Part shown: positions 1 through 8,329 of the stretch, piece after piece
How the letters are laid out: every line of letters starts with the position of its first letter
Position numbering within the stretch: position 1 is the first letter of the stretch
NCBI RefSeq assembly: GCF_002198675.1
Contig: NZ_MWLL01000134.1
Span: 11,177-48,106 of the forward strand
DNA length: 36,930 bases
Source: Kineosporia sp. R_H_3
GTDB taxonomy: Bacteria > Actinomycetota > Actinomycetes > Actinomycetales > Kineosporiaceae
Reading direction: 5' to 3'
Program-made: the position numbers and the translations under genes
Notes under the pieces: generated by a model
Seen by the model: only the letters and a program-made list of their open reading frames with translations
What the model was told of the DNA's origin: nothing
Database searches by the model: none

Positions 1-518
1 TCACGGCCCCGGCCGCCCCGGCGGCCCCGGCGGCCCCGGCGGCTCCGACCGCCCCTGTGGACACCACGACGCACGCCGCCACGACGACCGTCGCCGCGAC
101 GTCGTCCGCCGCGACGTCCTCCGCGGACGCGGCGGACGCGGCGTCGGCCGCCGGGACGCGCAGGGCCCGGCACACCGCCGCCGCGTTCTACGGCTCGCTC
201 ACCGGCTTCACGACGATGGTCGCGAACGCGGGCGGCCCGGTGATGTCGCTCTACATGCTCTCCATGCGGATGCCGATGCTCGCCTTCCTCGGCACGGGCG
301 CCTGGCTCTTCGCCCTCTTCAACCTCGTCAAGGTCCCGTTCAGCATCGGCCTCGGACTGCTCGACTGGCGCGCGCTCGGGGTCGACCTGGTGCTCGCACC
401 GGGTGTCGTCGTCGGTGCCGCCGTCGGCCGCTGGGCGATCCGCCGGATCGACCAGGCGCTGTTCGAACGGATCGTCCTCGTCGTCACGGTGCTCTCCGCG
501 GTGAACCTCGTCCGCTGA
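1..518 (+). CDS. TauE/SafE-family permease, C-terminal part (5' end outside window)
   Basis: The reading frame is open from base 3 to a stop at 516-518, so the gene starts upstream of the window. The first roughly 50 residues seen are a low-complexity linker of Pro-Ala-Ala units (a 9-base GC tandem repeat at about 11-45) followed by Ala/Thr/Ser-rich sequence. After it come hydrophobic segments typical of the second half of TauE/SafE permeases: a glycine-rich NAGGPVMSLYML stretch, a segment around AWLFALFNLVKVPFSIGLG, and a last segment ending at the C-terminus. This family exports sulfite, sulfoacetate or other organic anions across the inner membrane; the substrate cannot be told here. The long linker would join the two four-helix halves. 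A GTG at 57 could start a shorter protein, but that would cut the permease in half, so I favour the partial gene. Confidence 0.8.
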   Translation, partial: TAPAAPAAPAAPAAPTAPVDTTTHAATTTVAATSSAATSSADAADAASAAGTRRARHTAAAFYGSLTGFTTMVANAGGPVMSLYMLSMRMPMLAFLGTGAWLFALFNLVKVPFSIGLGLLDWRALGVDLVLAPGVVVGAAVGRWAIRRIDQALFERIVLVVTVLSAVNLVR

Positions 519-539
519 GCGGTCCGCGCGGTGGCAGGG

Positions 540-1106
540 TCAGGCGCCGTCGACCGCGCCGTCGCCCGGCGTACCGGGGCCCGCGGAGCCGATCGCCTCG
601 GTGATCGCCGAGGAGATCCGGCCGAGCGTCTCCACCTGCTCGGGGGAGAGCGCGTCGAAGACGAACCGGCGGACGGCCGCGACGTGGCCGGGGGCGAGCT
701 CGACGACCTTCGCCATGCCGGCGTCCGTGAGCATCGCGATCTGGCCGCGCCGGTCCGTCGGGCACTTGCGGCGCCGGACCCAGCCGTACCCCTCGAGCCG
801 GGCGACCGCGTGGGACAGCCGGCTCAGGGAGTTCGCGGTGACCTGGGACAGCTCGCTCATCCGCAGCTCGTGGCCGGGCGCCTCGGAGAGCATTGCCATG
901 ATCACGTAGTACGTGTGCGGGATCCCGGCGTCGGACTGGAGCTGGCGGTCGAGGGCGGCCGGCAGCTCGTGGAGCACGGGCATGAGCCCGCGCCACACCT
1001 GCTGCTCGGCGTCCGTGAGCCACCGCGGCCCCGGCCCGGCGGCTGCGCCCGGGGGCTCCTCGGCCCTCGCGGCCGCCAGGGTCGCCGACGTCGGGTCCGT
1101 CATCAC
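540..1106 (-). CDS. MarR-family transcriptional regulator
   Basis: A 188-residue protein with a winged helix-turn-helix of MarR type: around residues 75-120 it has the recognition helix (ELSQVTANSLSRLSHAVARL) and the wing with the conserved DRRG turn (CPTDRRGQIAMLTDAG). The N-terminal 30 residues are Ala/Gly/Pro-rich and probably disordered. MarR proteins are dimers that repress nearby genes and release DNA on binding phenolic ligands or on oxidation. Its start (GTG 1106, or ATG 1103) overlaps the stop of the upstream dioxygenase gene, so it is the last gene of the ribA-dioxygenase-marR operon and is translationally coupled. Two palindromes of TTGA-N4-TCAA type at the operon promoter (2808-2819 and 2843-2860) are its likely autoregulatory sites; that link is inference. 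Confidence 0.9.
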   Translation of the reverse strand: MMTDPTSATLAAARAEEPPGAAAGPGPRWLTDAEQQVWRGLMPVLHELPAALDRQLQSDAGIPHTYYVIMAMLSEAPGHELRMSELSQVTANSLSRLSHAVARLEGYGWVRRRKCPTDRRGQIAMLTDAGMAKVVELAPGHVAAVRRFVFDALSPEQVETLGRISSAITEAIGSAGPGTPGDGAVDGA

Positions 1107-1993
1107 GTGACCTGGAAGGACCGCTTCGACAGCCCCATCCAGAAGCCGTCGACGGTCGGCTCGACCGGGGCGTCCGGGGTCTGCGCGGCGCCGAGCGTCA
1201 CGAACAGCGGCGTGAAGTGCTCGACGGTGGGGTGGGCGTAGGGCATGCCGGGCGCCGCGCTCGCGAACGAGGCGAGCGTGTCGACGTCACCCTTGGAGAG
1301 CGCCTCGCCGGCCCATGCGTCGAACTCCGACGACCACGCCGGCGGTGCCGCGTCGCGGTTCGTCCAGTGCTCGCGGGTGAGGAACGGCAGGCCGTGGGTC
1401 AGGAACCCCGAGCCGATGACGAGGGTGCCCTCGGCGCGCAGGTCGTGGATCCGGCGGCCGATCTCCAGGAGCCGGGCCGGGTCGTGCGTCGGCAGGCTCA
1501 TCTGGACCACGGGCACGTCGGCGTCCGGGTACATCACCTTGAGCGGCACCCAGGCGCCGTGGTCGAGGCCGCGCCGCTTGTGCTCGTAGACCGGCTCGGT
1601 GTCGGGCATCGCGGACGCGACCCGCTTGGCGAGCGCGCTCGAGTCGGGGCTGGCGTACGTCATCTCGTAGTACATCTGCGGGAACCCGCCGAAGTCGTAG
1701 ACGAGCGGCGTGCCCTGCGCGGTGCCGGACAGGCTGAGCGGGGCCGACTCCCAGTGCGCGCTGATGACGAGCACGTCCTTCGGCTTGGGCATCGACTGCG
1801 TCCACGCGAAGAGCTGGCTCATCCAGCGCGCGTCCTCGAGCAGCGGGGGTGCGCCGTGGCCGTAGTACATGGCCGGCAGCGGGCCGTCGGCGGGCGTCCA
1901 CGCGCGCTGCGCGCGGGTCGCCGGCAGCGCCGTCCGGAGGAACTCCTCGTACTCGGCCGGGGCGGCCGGTCGGGAGGTGAAGCTGCTGCTCAT
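1103..1993 (-). CDS. 4,5-DOPA dioxygenase-like class III extradiol dioxygenase
   Basis: A 296-residue LigB-superfamily protein of the YgiD/DODA type, which opens catechol rings (DOPA in plants and fungi; the bacterial substrate is often unknown). Metal ligands visible are His46 in YYGHGAPP, His80 in VISAHW, and a C-terminal HPTVEHFTPLF block. The GLDHGAWVPL motif supplies the conserved His beside the active site. Length and motif order match the full family. The N-terminal 35 residues precede the usual YgiD start, but the initiator ATG at 1991-1993 is the first in frame after ribA. The gene lies 75 bases downstream of ribA and overlaps marR by 4 bases, which suggests control by a phenolic or catecholic ligand. 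What the enzyme cleaves cannot be read from sequence. Confidence 0.88.
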   Translation of the reverse strand: MSSSFTSRPAAPAEYEEFLRTALPATRAQRAWTPADGPLPAMYYGHGAPPLLEDARWMSQLFAWTQSMPKPKDVLVISAHWESAPLSLSGTAQGTPLVYDFGGFPQMYYEMTYASPDSSALAKRVASAMPDTEPVYEHKRRGLDHGAWVPLKVMYPDADVPVVQMSLPTHDPARLLEIGRRIHDLRAEGTLVIGSGFLTHGLPFLTREHWTNRDAAPPAWSSEFDAWAGEALSKGDVDTLASFASAAPGMPYAHPTVEHFTPLFVTLGAAQTPDAPVEPTVDGFWMGLSKRSFQVT

Positions 1994-2068
1994 CGCGTCC
2001 TCGCTCGTTCTGGTGTCGTCAGGGTGGGTGGGCGGCGCGGGTCCGTCAAGGCCCGCCGGGTGCGCGGG

Positions 2069-2797
2069 TCAGACCGCGAGGGGCAGCGCGATGGTGTGCG
2101 CGGTGTGCGTGACCTTCGCCTGCAGGTACCGGGCGTTCGCCGTCGACAGGTGCACCGCGGTCGGCACCCGGTGCGCGACCCGGACGCCGAGGCCCTCGAG
2201 CTGCGCCGCCTTGTCGGGGTTGTTGCTCAGCAGGTCGATCTCGTCGGCGCCGAGCGCCAGCAGCATCTGTGCGGCCGCCGTGTAGTCGCGCTCGTCGTCC
2301 GCACGCCCGAGCGCGCGGTTGGCGGCGTAGGTGTCGAGGCCGCCGTCCTGGAGGGCGTAGGCGTCGAGCTTGGCGTAGAGCCCGATGCCGCGGCCCTCCT
2401 GGCGCAGGTACAGCAGGAACCCGCCCGCCTCTGCGATCCGCTCGGCCGCCTCGCGCAGCTGCGGGCCGCAGTCGCAGCGCAGCGAGCCGAGGACGTCGCC
2501 GGTGAGGCACTCGGAGTGCGGGCGCACGAGCGTCCGACCGCCCGGGGTGCCACCCGCGAGGGCCGCGCGCCAGTCGCCGAGACCGATCGCCAGGTGCTCC
2601 TTGCCGTCGGCGAGCCCGTCGAACGTGAAGACGTCCGACGTCGTCGTCCAGCCGTCGGCGAACCGCAGTGGCACCGACACCGCGGTCCGGACGGTCGCCG
2701 CAGGGATGCCGGCCGCCGGGGTGGTCCCGGTCGCCGCCGCCGAGGGCGGCACGGTGCCGGGCAGGTCCGGTCCGGTGGTGGGGCGGGTCAGTCGCAT
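2069..2797 (-). CDS. ribA: GTP cyclohydrolase II
   Basis: A 242-residue stand-alone GTP cyclohydrolase II, which converts GTP to 2,5-diamino-6-ribosylamino-pyrimidinone phosphate, formate and pyrophosphate, the first step of riboflavin synthesis. The zinc site C-x10-C-x-C is present at Cys97, Cys108 and Cys110. The catalytic/arginine loop RQEGRGIGL is at residues 132-140, and the GTP-binding LLSNNPDKAAQLEGLG motif follows. No DHBP synthase (RibB) domain is fused, and no other rib gene is nearby. The extra N-terminal 40 residues are Pro/Thr-rich. ATG at 2795-2797 has a GGAG site seven bases upstream. It is the first gene of an operon with an extradiol dioxygenase and a MarR regulator, so this copy is probably a regulated paralogue feeding a special flavin or pterin need, not the housekeeping enzyme; that is inference. 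Confidence 0.93.
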   Translation of the reverse strand: MRLTRPTTGPDLPGTVPPSAAATGTTPAAGIPAATVRTAVSVPLRFADGWTTTSDVFTFDGLADGKEHLAIGLGDWRAALAGGTPGGRTLVRPHSECLTGDVLGSLRCDCGPQLREAAERIAEAGGFLLYLRQEGRGIGLYAKLDAYALQDGGLDTYAANRALGRADDERDYTAAAQMLLALGADEIDLLSNNPDKAAQLEGLGVRVAHRVPTAVHLSTANARYLQAKVTHTAHTIALPLAV

Positions 2798-2807
2798 GGT
2801 GGACTCC

Positions 2808-2819
2808 TTGAGCGCTCAA
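2808..2819. promoter_or_regulatory. Perfect 12-bp palindrome, proximal candidate MarR operator
   Basis: TTGAGCGCTCAA is its own reverse complement. It sits between the predicted transcription start and the ribosome site of ribA and has the same TTGA-N4-TCAA form as the palindrome 38 bases away (centre to centre). A MarR dimer bound here would block transcript elongation or initiation. Confidence 0.65.
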
Positions 2820-2829
2820 CTTCTGTCGG

Positions 2830-2857
2830 ACTCTACCAGGAGAACTTGAGTGTTCAA
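2830..2857 (-). promoter_or_regulatory. Predicted SigA-type promoter of the ribA operon
   Basis: Read on the minus strand, TTGAAC (2857-2852) serves as -35 and TAGAGT (2835-2830) as -10 with a 16-base spacer. Transcription would begin near 2823. The -35 lies inside the distal palindrome and the start site lies just before the proximal one, the usual arrangement for repression. Confidence 0.55.
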
Positions 2858-2860
2858 GTT
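2843..2860. promoter_or_regulatory. 18-bp inverted repeat, distal candidate MarR operator
   Basis: AACTTGAGTGTTCAAGTT has perfect 7-base arms (AACTTGA/TCAAGTT) around GTGT. It shares the TTGA-N4-TCAA core with 2808-2819 and overlaps the predicted -35 of the ribA promoter. Confidence 0.7.
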
Positions 2861-2867
2861 TTTCTTC

Positions 2868-2884
2868 CCCCGGTCGTTCCGGGG
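2868..2884 (-). terminator. Short hairpin downstream of the 2900-4012 gene
   Basis: CCCCGG and CCGGGG form a perfect 6-bp stem with a TCGTT loop 16 bases after the stop codon of the upstream minus-strand gene. There is no U-tract, so termination strength is uncertain. Confidence 0.35.
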
Positions 2885-2899
2885 TCGGCTGCCGGCCGG

Positions 2900-4012
2900 T
2901 CACCACGGCCGGGCCTCGAGCGCTGCGGACCACGCGAGCCGCCCGCGGGTGACCGTCGCCGCGGGGAGGCTGTCCGCGAACGCCTCGGTGGCGAGCAGGA
3001 CGTGCACGTGGGTGCTGAGCCGCTCCCGGGCGAGCCGCTCCAGCGCGGGGCGGTGCTGCGCGCAGACCCGGTGCTGCTGTGCGAGGTAGGCCCGCTGCCA
3101 ACGCATCGCGTCCCCGTGCCGGCCGGTGAGCAGCGTCGTCACGTCCTCGGCGGCGACCTCGAGCTCAGCGGGCACGTGCAGGCGTCCGGAGGCACCTGCC
3201 AGCGCGCCGACCGCGCCGAGGACCTCGCACGTGGTGTCGTCCTCGAGGTCCCAGGCGGTCGTCAGGAAGGCCTTGAGGAGGCGGACGTCGGCGAGCAGGA
3301 CCTGCTCGGCCCGGGCCACGACGACCGGGTGCCGCGGCCCGAACCGCTGCCGGGGTGCGGTCGCCGGGTGCGCGGCCGGTCGCGGGTTCGGGCGCCAGCG
3401 GGCGGGGACCCGGCCCGGTCGCCCCGCGCGGTCGAGGATCTGCGCTCGCAGGGCCGCCGTCCTGGCCCGGACCTGGGCCAGCTCCGCGGCGAGCGGCACC
3501 GGGTCGTGCCCGCCGACCGAGCCGAGGAAGGCCTCGACGGCGCGCGGGCCGTCGACGAGCTCCCAACGGACGAACGCCACCTCGGGGCGGCCCGCGGCGG
3601 GGAGCAGGTCCCGCAGCACGGACAGCAGCGGCCCGGTCGTGGGCAGGCGTGGCAGGGACGCGTCGAGCGGTGTGAGTGCGGCGAGGCCGACCGGGTGCCC
3701 GGGGGTCAGCCGGGCCGCGGTGACGCCGGTGTCGAGCTCGGCGAGGAGGTCCTGCTCCCACAGGTCGCCCCCGAGGAGGGCGTCGCCGAGGTCCCCGAGG
3801 AGGCTGCTCAGGTCGCAGTGCGACAGCCTCCAGCCGGGCCCGGGGTCGAGGTTCTCGGGCCGGGCGGGCAGGACCAGCTCGGGCAGCCCGAGGCTGTGCA
3901 GCCCGACGGTGACGGCGCAGGCCCCGGCGGGGTCGCCGTCCGCGTCGCAGATGCAGGCGACGCGCCACGGGCGGGCGGGGGACTCGACGATCTCGTGGAC
4001 GACCAGCTGCAC
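2900..4012 (-). CDS. Uncharacterised protein with DUF4262-like N-terminus
   Basis: A 370-residue protein of unknown function. Residues about 18-60 (CICDADGD...TVGLHSLGLPELVL) resemble the DUF4262 fold, in which an aspartate-rich start is followed by a TVGLH..GHPELV signature. The middle (about residues 175-240) is Ala/Arg/Pro-rich with a possible coiled-coil (ELAQVRARTAALRAQIL). The C-terminal third is helical, with a VRLLKAFLTTAWDLEDDTT stretch and a run of Arg, Gln and His residues. No signal peptide or membrane segment is seen. The GTG start at 4010-4012 has a GAGGAGG site about six bases upstream. The next minus-strand gene starts at 5467 and ends 228 bases upstream. I do not recognise the C-terminal part and assign no function. 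Confidence 0.6.
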   Translation of the reverse strand: MQLVVHEIVESPARPWRVACICDADGDPAGACAVTVGLHSLGLPELVLPARPENLDPGPGWRLSHCDLSSLLGDLGDALLGGDLWEQDLLAELDTGVTAARLTPGHPVGLAALTPLDASLPRLPTTGPLLSVLRDLLPAAGRPEVAFVRWELVDGPRAVEAFLGSVGGHDPVPLAAELAQVRARTAALRAQILDRAGRPGRVPARWRPNPRPAAHPATAPRQRFGPRHPVVVARAEQVLLADVRLLKAFLTTAWDLEDDTTCEVLGAVGALAGASGRLHVPAELEVAAEDVTTLLTGRHGDAMRWQRAYLAQQHRVCAQHRPALERLARERLSTHVHVLLATEAFADSLPAATVTRGRLAWSAALEARPW

Positions 4013-4167
4013 GGGGGCCTCCTCGCTCGGGACCGGCGGTGCCGGTCGTTCGAGCGACGAGGCTTCGGGGCGGGGGTGACGGTCCGGGGCGGACGGGACC
4101 TGCCCCTGTGGACAAGCCGGGTCCGGTCCGGGGTGTGGACGGGTCGGGCCCGGACGAGCGGTCGGGT

Positions 4168-4239
4168 CAGTGGCCTGCGGTGAGGCCTGTGGTGCGGCCT
4201 GTGGTGAGGCCTGTGGTGAGGCCTGCGGTGCGGTCGGCG
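4168..4239. repeat. 12-bp tandem repeat, about six units
   Basis: Units of the form GTGMGGCCTGYG run at 4180-4191, 4192-4203, 4204-4215 and 4216-4227, with degenerate copies on both sides (4168-4179, 4228-4239). The block ends two bases before the stop codon of the 4241-5467 gene. It lies between two minus-strand genes and encodes nothing recognisable. The rest of the gap (4013-4167) holds one DnaA-box-like TGTGGACAA at 4107-4115 and no other signal. Confidence 0.85.
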
Positions 4240-4240
4240 G

Positions 4241-5467
4241 TCAGGCCCAGCGCCACTGGACGCCGTAGCAGAGCCCCTGGACGACCTGCTCGAACCGGAC
4301 CCGGATCACCCCGGTGTCGTCGGGCGTCAGCGTGCGGGTCGTCGGGTGCGCGTCCTCGAGCACCGCCGGCGGGACGCCGTCCAGCCGCCAGGCGAGCGCC
4401 ACCGCGTCGGCGTCGGCGAACCGGATCTCGGCGGAGAACCGCCGTGTGCGCCGCAGCGGGATGAGCACGTAGTGCGGCCGCATCCGGTCCCGGTCCGCGG
4501 TGAAGCTCACGACGTACCGGTGGCGCTCGCCGGCGCGCAGCGGCCGCGGCAGAGCCAGCTCGTACCGCCAGTGGCTCTCCGAGACGCGGTGCGCGCCGCG
4601 GATCCGGCAGCCCGCCTCGGCGACGATGCCGAGCTCGGGCAGGGTCCCCGGCTCGAGCGCCTGGACGCTGAGGGTCGCCGTCACGGTGTCGAGCCCGTCG
4701 GCGTCGGCGACGATGACGCGGTCCTCGGTGAGCCGGGCGGACGCCGAGTCGAGGCGCATGGTGGCGGCGAGGCTCTCGACGTACCAGCCGGTCGGGGCGA
4801 ACGGGTTGCCCGGCTCGCCGCTCTGGCGGGACACCAGGGCGTCGGCGAGCTGGCGGGTCGCGGCGTCCAGCCGGCGGCGGGCCGTCCGGGCGTCGCGGTC
4901 CATCGCGGTCGCGATGGCGTCGATCCGGTCGGTGAGCAGCGGCACGTTGGTCCAGCCGTCGACGGCCAGGCTCACGAGCACGGCCTCGCGCAGGTCCCCG
5001 GCGAGCGCCTGGGCCGCCTCGACGATCCCGCTCTGGGCCAGCCGGCGCAGCTCGGTCTCGGGGAGGGCCAGGTCGAGGTCGAGCGCCGCGACGAGAGCGG
5101 GCCCGAGGCGGGACACCAGCCCCGGCGACTGCAGCGCCCGCCCCTTGCGCAGGGCCATGAGGTCCCGGGTGAGGGTGTCGACGTCGACCTGCGCGACGCC
5201 GTTCGGGTCGCCGTGGTCGTCGAGCGGGTCGTCGAGCTGGTCGTCACCATGATCGTCGAGGTGGTCGTCACCGTCGTCGCCCACGTCGGCGTCGTCGTCG
5301 CGCCGGCCGCCGAGGTGGTCCTCGGGCGGCGCGTCGGGGGCCGGCGTGCCGTTCCTGCCGGACCGCTCGACCCGCAGGCCGTCCAGGTCGTCGTGACGGG
5401 CCTCGAGGACGGTCGGGCCGTCGTCGGCCCGCCCGTCCGGCGTCGGCCCGGAGGTTCCCCCGGTCAT
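4241..5467 (-). CDS. Uncharacterised actinobacterial protein with Asp-rich N-terminus
   Basis: I do not recognise a named function. Starting at ATG 5465-5467 it has 408 residues; the frame stays open further upstream to 5614 but that extension has no coding character and runs through an A/T-richer promoter-like region. Residues about 55-85 are an acidic Asp/His/Gly run (repeated DDH and DDD), probably disordered. Next comes TRDLMALRKGRALQSPGLVSRLGP, a pattern often seen in actinobacterial helix-turn-helix-associated orphan proteins, then a helical domain and a beta-rich C-terminal domain ending ...GLCYGVQWRW. No membrane segment is predicted. The C-terminal part (from about residue 230) looks like an all-beta sensory or immunoglobulin-like fold, which is a guess. 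Confidence 0.6.
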   Translation of the reverse strand: MTGGTSGPTPDGRADDGPTVLEARHDDLDGLRVERSGRNGTPAPDAPPEDHLGGRRDDDADVGDDGDDHLDDHGDDQLDDPLDDHGDPNGVAQVDVDTLTRDLMALRKGRALQSPGLVSRLGPALVAALDLDLALPETELRRLAQSGIVEAAQALAGDLREAVLVSLAVDGWTNVPLLTDRIDAIATAMDRDARTARRRLDAATRQLADALVSRQSGEPGNPFAPTGWYVESLAATMRLDSASARLTEDRVIVADADGLDTVTATLSVQALEPGTLPELGIVAEAGCRIRGAHRVSESHWRYELALPRPLRAGERHRYVVSFTADRDRMRPHYVLIPLRRTRRFSAEIRFADADAVALAWRLDGVPPAVLEDAHPTTRTLTPDDTGVIRVRFEQVVQGLCYGVQWRWA

Positions 5468-5642
5468 CGTTGCCACACGTGCCCCGTAAGTCGTCCGCCC
5501 GGTACCGGCGGATGTGGCGATGGCCCCGAGATCGACCGCCCTGACACGGCCTCCATGCGCGGTCACACCATAGTTGACAAGTAGTGGACAGGCGCGGAGA
5601 ACGCTTTCAAACATGCGTAGCGATGACTATCGTCTCTGAGGC

Positions 5643-5660
5643 GGGACCGGGGGCGGTCCC
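5643..5660. other. Hairpin in the 5468-5894 intergenic region
   Basis: GGGACCG and CGGTCCC form a perfect 7-bp stem with a GGGG loop. A second stem (CGGTGAC 5674-5680 with GTCACCG 5692-5698) follows. The region between the divergent genes at 5467 and 5895 is 427 bases long; apart from these hairpins it holds the SigR-like promoter and palindrome listed next, and a LacI-half-site-like GAACGCTTTCAA near 5598. Confidence 0.4.
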
Positions 5661-5773
5661 TGGGGCGGGGCGTCGGTGACTCCACGGGGAGGTCACCGGC
5701 CCCCGCCTCCTGGCGTTCCGGGCAGGCGCCGACGCCGCGCAGGCGACCCGTCGTCGTCCCGTCGTCCGCTGCC

Positions 5774-5799
5774 GGAATGTCCCGGCGTCCTGTACCGTT
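5774..5799 (+). promoter_or_regulatory. SigR/SigH-type promoter ahead of the pirin genes
   Basis: GGAAT (5774-5778) and GTT (5797-5799) are separated by exactly 18 bases, matching the published Streptomyces SigR consensus GGAAT-N18-GTT for thiol-oxidative stress promoters. Transcription would start near 5807, inside the adjacent palindrome, about 90 bases before the pirin start codon. A short motif like this can occur by chance. Confidence 0.5.
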
Positions 5800-5806
5800 C
5801 TCGGGA

Positions 5807-5824
5807 TAGTTGAATTCGAAACTA
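5807..5824. promoter_or_regulatory. Interrupted palindrome, candidate operator of the pirin genes
   Basis: TAGTTGAATTCGAAACTA has arms TAGTT/AACTA, flanked by GGG (5803-5805) and CCC (5825-5827). Removing two bases (GA) gives the perfect palindrome TAGTTGAATTCAACTA. The AT-rich site stands out in this GC-rich region and lies at the predicted transcription start, as expected for a repressor of MarR or HxlR type; the regulator is not in the adjacent genes. Confidence 0.5.
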
Positions 5825-5894
5825 CCCGCGAGGACGGCGTGCCGGCCATGAGCAGGCACGGCAGACTCGTCGGGACGGACAGGAGCGTGGACCC

Positions 5895-6686
5895 ATGAGC
5901 GACACCCCCGCGAGCGCGTCGACCCTCGAGGTCGTGGACCCGGCCATCGACGTCCGGCGGGCCGGAGAGCGGTTCGTGACCCAGGCGGGCGGCTGGCTCG
6001 ACTCCAAGCACTCGTTCTCCTTCGGGCACCACCGCGACCCGCGGAACACCCACTTCGGGCTGCTGCTCGTCAACAACGACGACATCGTCAAGCCCGGCAC
6101 CGGCTTCGAGACGCACCCCCACCAGGACATGGAGATCGTCACCTGGGTCATGCAGGGGTCGCTCGTGCACCAGGACTCGACGGGGCACAGCGGCGTCATC
6201 TACCCGGGTCTGGCCCAGCGGATGAGTGCCGGCACCGGCATCCTGCACAGCGAGAAGAACGACTCGTGGCGGCTGAAGGGCGGCCCCGAGCACCTCGACC
6301 CGGTGCACTTCGTGCAGATGTGGGTCGTGCCCGACGAGGGCTCGATCGCGCCGGGCTACGAGCAGCTCGAGATCGCCGACGAGCTCATGCGCGGCGGGCT
6401 CGTGCCGGTGGCGTCCGGGATGCCCGGGCACGCCGACCACGCGGCCATCCGGATCAAGAACAAGTACGCCGCCCTGCTCGCCTCGCGGATGTCCGCGGGT
6501 GACACCGTGACGCTGCCTGAGGCGCCGTTCGTCCACCTCTTCGTGCCGCGCGGCACCGTGCGGCTCGAGGGCGCCGGCGAGCTGACGGACGGCGACGCCG
6601 CCCGGATCCTCGGCGGCGGCCAGAAGATCACGGCGTCGACCGACGCCGAGATCCTCGTCTGGGAGATGCACGCACGGCTCAGCTGA
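5895..6686 (+). CDS. Pirin-family bicupin protein (quercetinase-like), first copy
   Basis: A 263-residue bicupin of the pirin/YhhW family. Such proteins bind iron; some cleave quercetin to a depside and CO, others act as redox-linked regulators. All four metal ligands are in place: His74 and His76 in FETHPHQDME, His118 and Glu120 in TGILHSE. The second cupin (about residues 150-255) lacks a metal site, as usual. The N-terminal block ERFVTQAGGWLDSKHSFSFGHH is the family signature of the short, YhhW-like type. ATG 5895 follows AGGAG at about 5880 with a long spacer. It is followed 42 bases later by a second, longer pirin, so the two probably form one transcript from the SigR-like promoter at 5774-5799. 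Confidence 0.92.
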   Translation: MSDTPASASTLEVVDPAIDVRRAGERFVTQAGGWLDSKHSFSFGHHRDPRNTHFGLLLVNNDDIVKPGTGFETHPHQDMEIVTWVMQGSLVHQDSTGHSGVIYPGLAQRMSAGTGILHSEKNDSWRLKGGPEHLDPVHFVQMWVVPDEGSIAPGYEQLEIADELMRGGLVPVASGMPGHADHAAIRIKNKYAALLASRMSAGDTVTLPEAPFVHLFVPRGTVRLEGAGELTDGDAARILGGGQKITASTDAEILVWEMHARLS

Positions 6687-8235: not shown

Positions 8236-8329
8236 GCAGGCTCGTCGATGCACGCATCGATGTGCGGCCTGCGGGGTCATCGCCCCGGCGACGACACATC
8301 GATCCCTGCATCGACGATGCCGAGCCTGC
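8236..8329. repeat. Long interrupted inverted repeat with nested hairpin (element 1)
   Basis: Arms 8243-8264 and 8295-8316 are 22 bases each and match at 20 positions; they are built from GATGCA/ATCGATG motifs. Outer 7-base arms GCAGGCT (8236-8242) and AGCCTGC (8323-8329) extend the stem past a six-base bulge. The 30-base centre contains a further CGGGG-TCATCG-CCCCG hairpin (8272-8287). It lies in the 252-base gap between the macro-domain gene's stop (8429) and the VOC start (8176); nothing else is seen there. A similar element with the same 30-base centre occurs at 25319-25384. Confidence 0.85.

Follow-up and report, generated by a model that had tools for sequence, protein, structure and literature searches.

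Two TTGA-N4-TCAA palindromes upstream of a ribA-dioxygenase-marR gene trio are probable operators of the trio's own MarR protein

Genes and palindromes at the locus

The window, by which we mean the whole 36,930-bp stretch of DNA that was analysed, contains three minus-strand genes in the order ribA (2797-2069), dioxygenase gene (1993-1103) and marR (1106-540). ribA encodes GTP cyclohydrolase II (PF00925, E = 1.1e-53; NF001591, 249.6 bits, cut-off 148). The second gene encodes a LigB-type (class III) extradiol dioxygenase, DOPA-dioxygenase-like, with PF02900 at E = 1.1e-27 and an NF007914 score of 159.1 bits, which is below the cut-off of 233. The third gene encodes the MarR protein P0001 (PF12802, E = 3.2e-08; also PF01047). 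The gap between ribA and the dioxygenase gene is 75 bases, and an in-frame ATG of marR (1103-1101) shares one base with the dioxygenase stop codon. The three genes are presumably co-transcribed. Their order is identical in two other genomes of the genus, G001 and G002, so that marR is the third and last gene in all three genomes, as the sequence-only reading had it when it said that marR closes the same operon. Within the genus, the DNA of the dioxygenase gene (1103-1993) is more conserved (96% identity) than that of its operon neighbours (92-94%), and 31 of its 33 differences from G001 are at third codon positions. Elsewhere in the window there are a pirin gene (P0004; 5895-6686, plus strand; PF02678, E = 1.1e-30), a tandem array of about six copies of the 12-bp unit GGCCTGCGGTGA (4172-4247), and a large imperfect inverted repeat in an inter-ORF gap (8242-8317), whose 35-nt arms are 80% complementary and 6 nt apart.

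Two palindromes lie upstream of ribA. The proximal one, TTGAGCGCTCAA (2808-2819), is a perfect 12-bp palindrome, and the distal one, AACTTGAGTGTTCAAGTT (2843-2860), has 7-bp arms around a 4-nt centre. It had been claimed that the two share one core and are 38 bases apart, and this proved correct: exact TTGA-N4-TCAA is found at 2808-2819 and 2846-2857, 38 bp from start to start. These are the only two exact occurrences in the 36,930 bp, while dinucleotide shuffles (n = 100) contained 0.02 on average and none contained two. In the 7.26-Mb genome, TTGANNNNTCAAG gave nine strand-matches against two for a reversed-pattern control. An alignment of the upstream regions of the three genomes showed that GAAAAACTTGAACACTCAAGTT and CAGAAGTTGAGCGCTCAAGGAGTCCA, and with them both sites, are invariant, whereas the spacer differs at several positions. 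Thus, both palindromes are genuine and exceed what chance would yield. G001 and G002 have one extra base in the spacer, giving a distance of 39 instead of 38, and because its length varies within the genus, strict helical phasing of two dimers is not required. The sites had also been called the most A/T-rich and most symmetric of the region. The window contains 20 18-mers that have perfect 7-bp arms and a 4-nt centre, and of these the distal site has the highest A/T content (67%; next 39%). The top A+T content of a 20-bp segment in positions 1-6000 (70%) is common to the distal site and a palindrome at 5807 before the pirin gene. One further TTGA-N4-TCAA in the genome (locus L094, around 1773, on contig C160) is located some 215 bp upstream of a 16S rRNA gene and is probably unrelated to the operators. 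The word alone is therefore no proof of an operator.

The sites have also been said to bracket the ribA promoter. By eye, a putative -35 element TTGAAC (2857-2852, minus strand) is followed after 16 bases by a putative -10 element TAGAGT (2830-2835, minus strand), and a putative ribosome-binding site AAGGAG (2804-2809, minus strand), conserved in the three genomes, precedes ribA. In G001 and G002, the counterpart of the -10 element is TACAGT with a 17-base spacer. A consensus promoter scan reported nothing in the ribA upstream region, including this -10 element, so the promoter assignment is a by-eye reading together with the three-genome alignment. On this assignment, bracketing is an inexact description: the distal palindrome contains the -35 element, and the proximal palindrome begins 10 bases after the -10 element, at about +5, lies in the region of the transcript start, which is expected near 2824-2823 on the minus strand, and extends into AAGGAG.

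The site recurs before orthologous dioxygenase genes

A search of 394 genomes of the class found the dioxygenase in 144 (148 matches). Of these matches, 147 lie outside the genome studied here, and our analysis covered 129 of them (29 + 100 loci); the other 18 all belong to one genus (g42). Exact TTGA-N4-TCAA occurs within 200 bp upstream of 59 of the 129 orthologues and in none of 129 control stretches inside the gene, and 200 sets of Markov shuffles of the upstream regions gave a mean of 0.21 and a maximum of 2. The same core before orthologous operons, whose absence would have spoken against operators, is thus present, in 30 of 52 genera and 17 of 25 families. Seventy loci have no exact site and eight families have none at all. 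The site is infrequent or missing in f35 (7/23), f26 (1/9), f25 (4/13), f12 (0/6), f45 (0/5) and f21 (0/4). A one-mismatch word is the best match at another 26 loci, where about 5 would be expected. Of the seven dioxygenase loci returned for other genera of the window's own family (L198-L204), six have the site; eight weaker matches came without a locus. Furthermore, 66 sites agree beyond the searched core, at T (73%), A (71%) and an inner A (70%), which were not imposed by the search, and their extended consensus is approximately TA(G/C)TTGAA-NN-TTCAA(C/G)TA.

A MarR of the same family is encoded within the fetched 1.5 kb at 33 of the 129 loci, divergently at 31 and downstream in the same direction at two. 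The exact site occurs at 18 of these 33 loci and also at 41 of the 96 loci that have no family MarR nearby, indicating that it is independent of a neighbouring marR. At none of the 129 loci was ribA found upstream on the same strand within about 1.5 kb, and therefore the order ribA-dioxygenase-marR is known from the genus only.

P0001 belongs to the SCO3205/AbsC family

The solved chains nearest to P0001 are 3ZPL, which is SCO3205 with DNA (E = 1.8e-45), and 3ZMD, which is AbsC (2.9e-29); the next one follows at 2.4e-09. By this search P0001 is a member of the SCO3205/AbsC family. Among the base and backbone contact positions of SCO3205 that we looked at, 14 of 17 are identical in P0001, namely (in SCO3205 numbers) Arg32, Tyr44, Arg60, Met61, Ser73, Arg74, Ser76, His77, Arg81, Arg90, Asp96, Arg98, Gly99 and Gln100. 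Thr62 is changed to Ser, Arg72 in the recognition helix to Leu, and Lys97 to Arg. Asp28, the anchor of the tail that orients Arg72 in SCO3205, is Ala in P0001. Part of the SCO3205 contact network is thus absent because of the changes at Arg72, Thr62 and Asp28. SCO3205 Trp16 and His119, which match the salicylate ligands of AbsC, correspond to Trp38 and His141 of P0001. This pair is kept in all 114 MarR rows compared, which were chosen by similarity to P0001; the six "own" rows represent three genomes, each entered twice, and the "other" group again includes these genomes. The only cysteine of P0001 is Cys115, located in the wing.

In a tree of 111 rows, P0001 groups with four MarRs whose genes lie downstream of the partner gene on the same strand, the partner being ribA at L206 and L207 and the dioxygenase gene at L076 and L128. 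That these nearest relatives share the operon-type layout speaks for our reading, as do the two sites 35 bp apart that precede the dioxygenase gene at L076. Against it, the support of the clade is only 97/72 and one of the four is on a long branch. Exact TTGA-N4-TCAA is missing before the operons at L207 and L128. SCO3205 is found among MarRs of family f27 that are divergent from the dioxygenase gene.

The ribA subfamily of the window is present in 28 of 296 genomes, own included. Among 28 loci of this subfamily outside the own genome, 12 adjoin a family MarR and two (L206 and L209) have TTGA-N4-TCAA at or near the 5' end. Ten of the 12 MarRs belong to f27 (L218-L220, L225-L231) and are encoded upstream of ribA on the same strand; they have Thr76/Tyr77 in the recognition helix instead of Ser76/His77, and their loci have no TTGA-N4-TCAA. 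One common operator for all relatives was therefore rejected. A strict palindrome scan before these ten loci also found nothing, but this null result is weak evidence because the same scan catches only the distal site of the window and misses the proximal and pirin sites. The own genome has a second ribA, with no such MarR in its locus (L233).

Candidate sites before pirin, reductase and other genes

A probable related operator, TAGTTGAATTCGAAACTA (5807-5824), lies 71 bp before the pirin gene, a possible second target. It has two mismatches to TAGTTGANNNNTCAACTA and is one of three places in the own genome at this threshold. The other two precede a homologue of malonic-semialdehyde reductase on C58 (L235, G000:C58:13895; NF003768, 257.7 bits, cut-off 152) and a second pirin gene on C265 (L236, G000:C265:3137). 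Weaker matches mean little, because with up to three mismatches there were 17 places and the reversed control already had 12. All three places recur in G001 and two of the three, all but that of the C265 pirin, in the incomplete G002; the control count in these genomes is 0. The pirin palindrome of the window stands at the same place before the orthologous pirin gene in both genomes, and the remaining TAGTTGANNNNTCAACTA site in each of them is at a MarR paralogue. The C58 reductase fits what has been published on sco5049, a target of SCO3205 (PMC3737563).

We also searched 16 hand-picked genomes, mostly dioxygenase carriers, for a consensus of the TAGTTGANNNNTCAACTA type. Eleven of them have a match with at most one mismatch (23 places, 18 of them given as loci). 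A dioxygenase gene follows the site in five of these loci (L293, L295, L296, L299 and L307). Ten further scanned proteins by the sites comprise three luciferase-like monooxygenases, two YceI proteins, both of which adjoin a family MarR, one DoxX, one F420_oxidored, two phosphodiesterase-like proteins and one sugar transferase. These matches support a common regulon theme, which sequence matches of this kind do not prove.

Among the best 30 loci of pirin orthologues (own included), 16 have an 18-mer of the same geometry with at most four mismatches in the 250 bp upstream, while only 4 of 600 shuffles reached four mismatches and none reached fewer. Exact TTGA-N4-TCAA was found in the 250 bp upstream of none of these 30 loci. 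Eight of the 16 have an altered word of the type TAGATGA-N4-TCATCTA. At L251, L253, L260-L262, L264, L265 and L267, a pirin orthologue is accompanied by a divergent MarR and a palindrome of this type. Because the word is altered and the MarRs near pirin orthologues are in a separate clade, such loci seem to be sister systems and not targets of P0001.

Relation to described MarR systems

The closest described system is that of SCO3205 in Streptomyces coelicolor. SCO3205 has two operators between sco3205 and the divergent gene sco3204, whose hypothetical product resembles class III extradiol dioxygenases (PMC3737563). The footprints are CAATACTTGAACTCTCAATCTTTA (KD 1.3 nM) and ATTTTGTTTAATGTTCAAGGAACC (2.4 nM) with the consensus TTnAAnnnTCAA, and the arrangement is syntenous in 15 genomes (PMC3737563). 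The authors assigned no function to SCO3205 and named no physiological theme for its regulon (PMC3737563). The likeness to the locus in the window extends to the MarR family, the dioxygenase partner, most of the contact residues looked at, the ligand pair and a pair of TT(G/n)A-N4-TCAA sites in the control region of marR and the dioxygenase gene. The layout differs. The SCO3204-SCO3205 genes are divergent with one operator each, whereas the window has a one-way trio with ribA first and marR last, and both operators precede ribA. We treated the divergent arrangement as variable, given that 31 of the 33 class loci have it and two do not. At position 5, the published consensus has A, which the distal site matches on the minus strand (TTGAACACTCAA), whereas the proximal site has G there on both strands. 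The operator and the MarR-dioxygenase pairing were already known from SCO3204-SCO3205, and the sequence-only idea was largely right and mostly not new. In open-licence PMC papers we found no description of the one-way ribA-dioxygenase-marR operon, nor of this lineage's sites before the pirin and reductase genes.

Other MarR systems are more distant. AbsC (SCO5405) is of the same family, and its salicylate-binding Trp/His pair is also in P0001, but it lies in another part of the tree and has been characterised as an antibiotic regulator that depends on zinc. RosR (Cg1324) of Corynebacterium glutamicum has the consensus TTGTTGAYRYRTCAACWA, which contains the same core as the sites in the window. 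A printed RosR site, rosRb (TAGGTGATATGACAACAC), is of the same size as these operators (PMC7764795). RosR is a MarR with autoregulatory sites, as we propose for P0001, and differs in its sensitivity to H2O2. The operators described for AesR and AcsR of C. glutamicum differ from the sites in the window. MhqR of Bacillus subtilis and Staphylococcus aureus, from another phylum, represses its own operon, which includes a ring-cleavage dioxygenase, and its described regulon includes quinone reductases (PMC12893000). Membership in the MhqR group was rejected, because the MhqR operator given there is TATCTCGAA-ATCGAAATA (PMC12893000) instead of TTGA-N4-TCAA.

Which protein binds the palindromes?

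We consider it probable that the two palindromes are operators of a MarR dimer made from the third gene of the same operon, which would repress that operon. The relationship of P0001 to SCO3205, the conserved contacts, the invariance of the sites in the genus and their recurrence before dioxygenase genes support this well. The strongest rival leaves the sites as MarR operators but makes a paralogous MarR their main binder, while P0001 would share the sites or serve other targets. The own genome encodes three further P0001-like MarRs, those of C109, C85 and C60, with similar recognition helices; that of the C109 paralogue (LSRLSHVVSR) is close to that of P0001 (LSRLSHAVAR), and this paralogue has its own pair of TTGA-N4-TCAA sites. 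The 41 site-bearing dioxygenase loci without a nearby family MarR imply that regulation in trans is common, and the authors of the SCO3205 study expect regulons that overlap with those of AbsC and SCO7727 (PMC3737563). Nevertheless, each of the three genomes of the genus has marR within this operon, and autoregulation is described as usual in the MarR family (PMC3737563; PMC13413800). We therefore regard a paralogue as main binder as unlikely.

Explanations that need no MarR fare much worse. Short palindromes are generic, and the word before the 16S rRNA gene illustrates this, so one could think of chance or of an unrelated repressor such as LexA or TetR. The LexA-type box is GAAC-N4-GTTC. Such a box is absent from the window, so LexA was rejected, and the conservation of the sites and their link to a MarR of known specificity make this whole group of explanations very improbable. 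ribA is a classic target of flavin riboswitches, which often precede rib genes. The proximal palindrome adjoins the ribosome-binding site, so the palindromes might act in the RNA, as a leader hairpin or a flavin riboswitch. However, no Rfam family, neither the FMN riboswitch nor another leader element, reached its gathering score in the window, and 172 of 200 shuffles folded at least as well as the expected 47-nt leader with the proximal site included. In addition, the same word stands before unrelated genes at differing positions. Control at the RNA level was thus rejected, and we give it almost no chance.

A possible mechanism and its meaning

Binding by the operon's own MarR suggests the following model, in which we infer binding, repression, a signal and a detoxifying role of the operon. 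Without a signal, one MarR dimer would sit on the distal site over the -35 element and keep RNA polymerase out, and a second dimer on the proximal site would cover the transcription start up to the ribosome-binding site. Repression would thus extend to ribA, the dioxygenase gene and marR alike. The dimers may be freed by a small aromatic compound resembling salicylate or catechol, bound in the pocket that holds Trp38 and His141, or by oxidation, for which Cys115 in the wing is the one cysteine available. The ring-cleavage enzyme and the flavin supply would then increase for as long as the signal lasts, after which fresh MarR would shut the operon again.

A broader idea is tentative, and we hold it to be rather less probable than the operon-level reading. 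MarRs of the SCO3205/AbsC type, and perhaps of the RosR type, might form one actinomycete regulator family with 18-bp TA(G/C)TTGA-N4-TCAA(C/G)TA operators over a flavin-linked regulon for the detoxification of aromatics and quinones. The extradiol dioxygenase, GTP cyclohydrolase II as flavin supply, pirins, the malonic-semialdehyde-reductase/nitroreductase homologue, luciferase-type monooxygenases and YceI might be its members. The window might then show three elements of that regulon, ribA, the dioxygenase gene and marR, condensed into a single operon that represses itself.

Although the crystal structure of SCO3205 on DNA has been solved, its authors could name no function for it. The candidate targets offered by the window and its relatives (dioxygenase, ribA, pirins and reductase) form a more coherent set, and a Trp/His ligand pair is conserved. 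A sensor of aromatics or quinones is a hypothesis that can be tested with one purified protein and one promoter. If the broader idea is true, it would give a function to the uncharacterised SCO3205.
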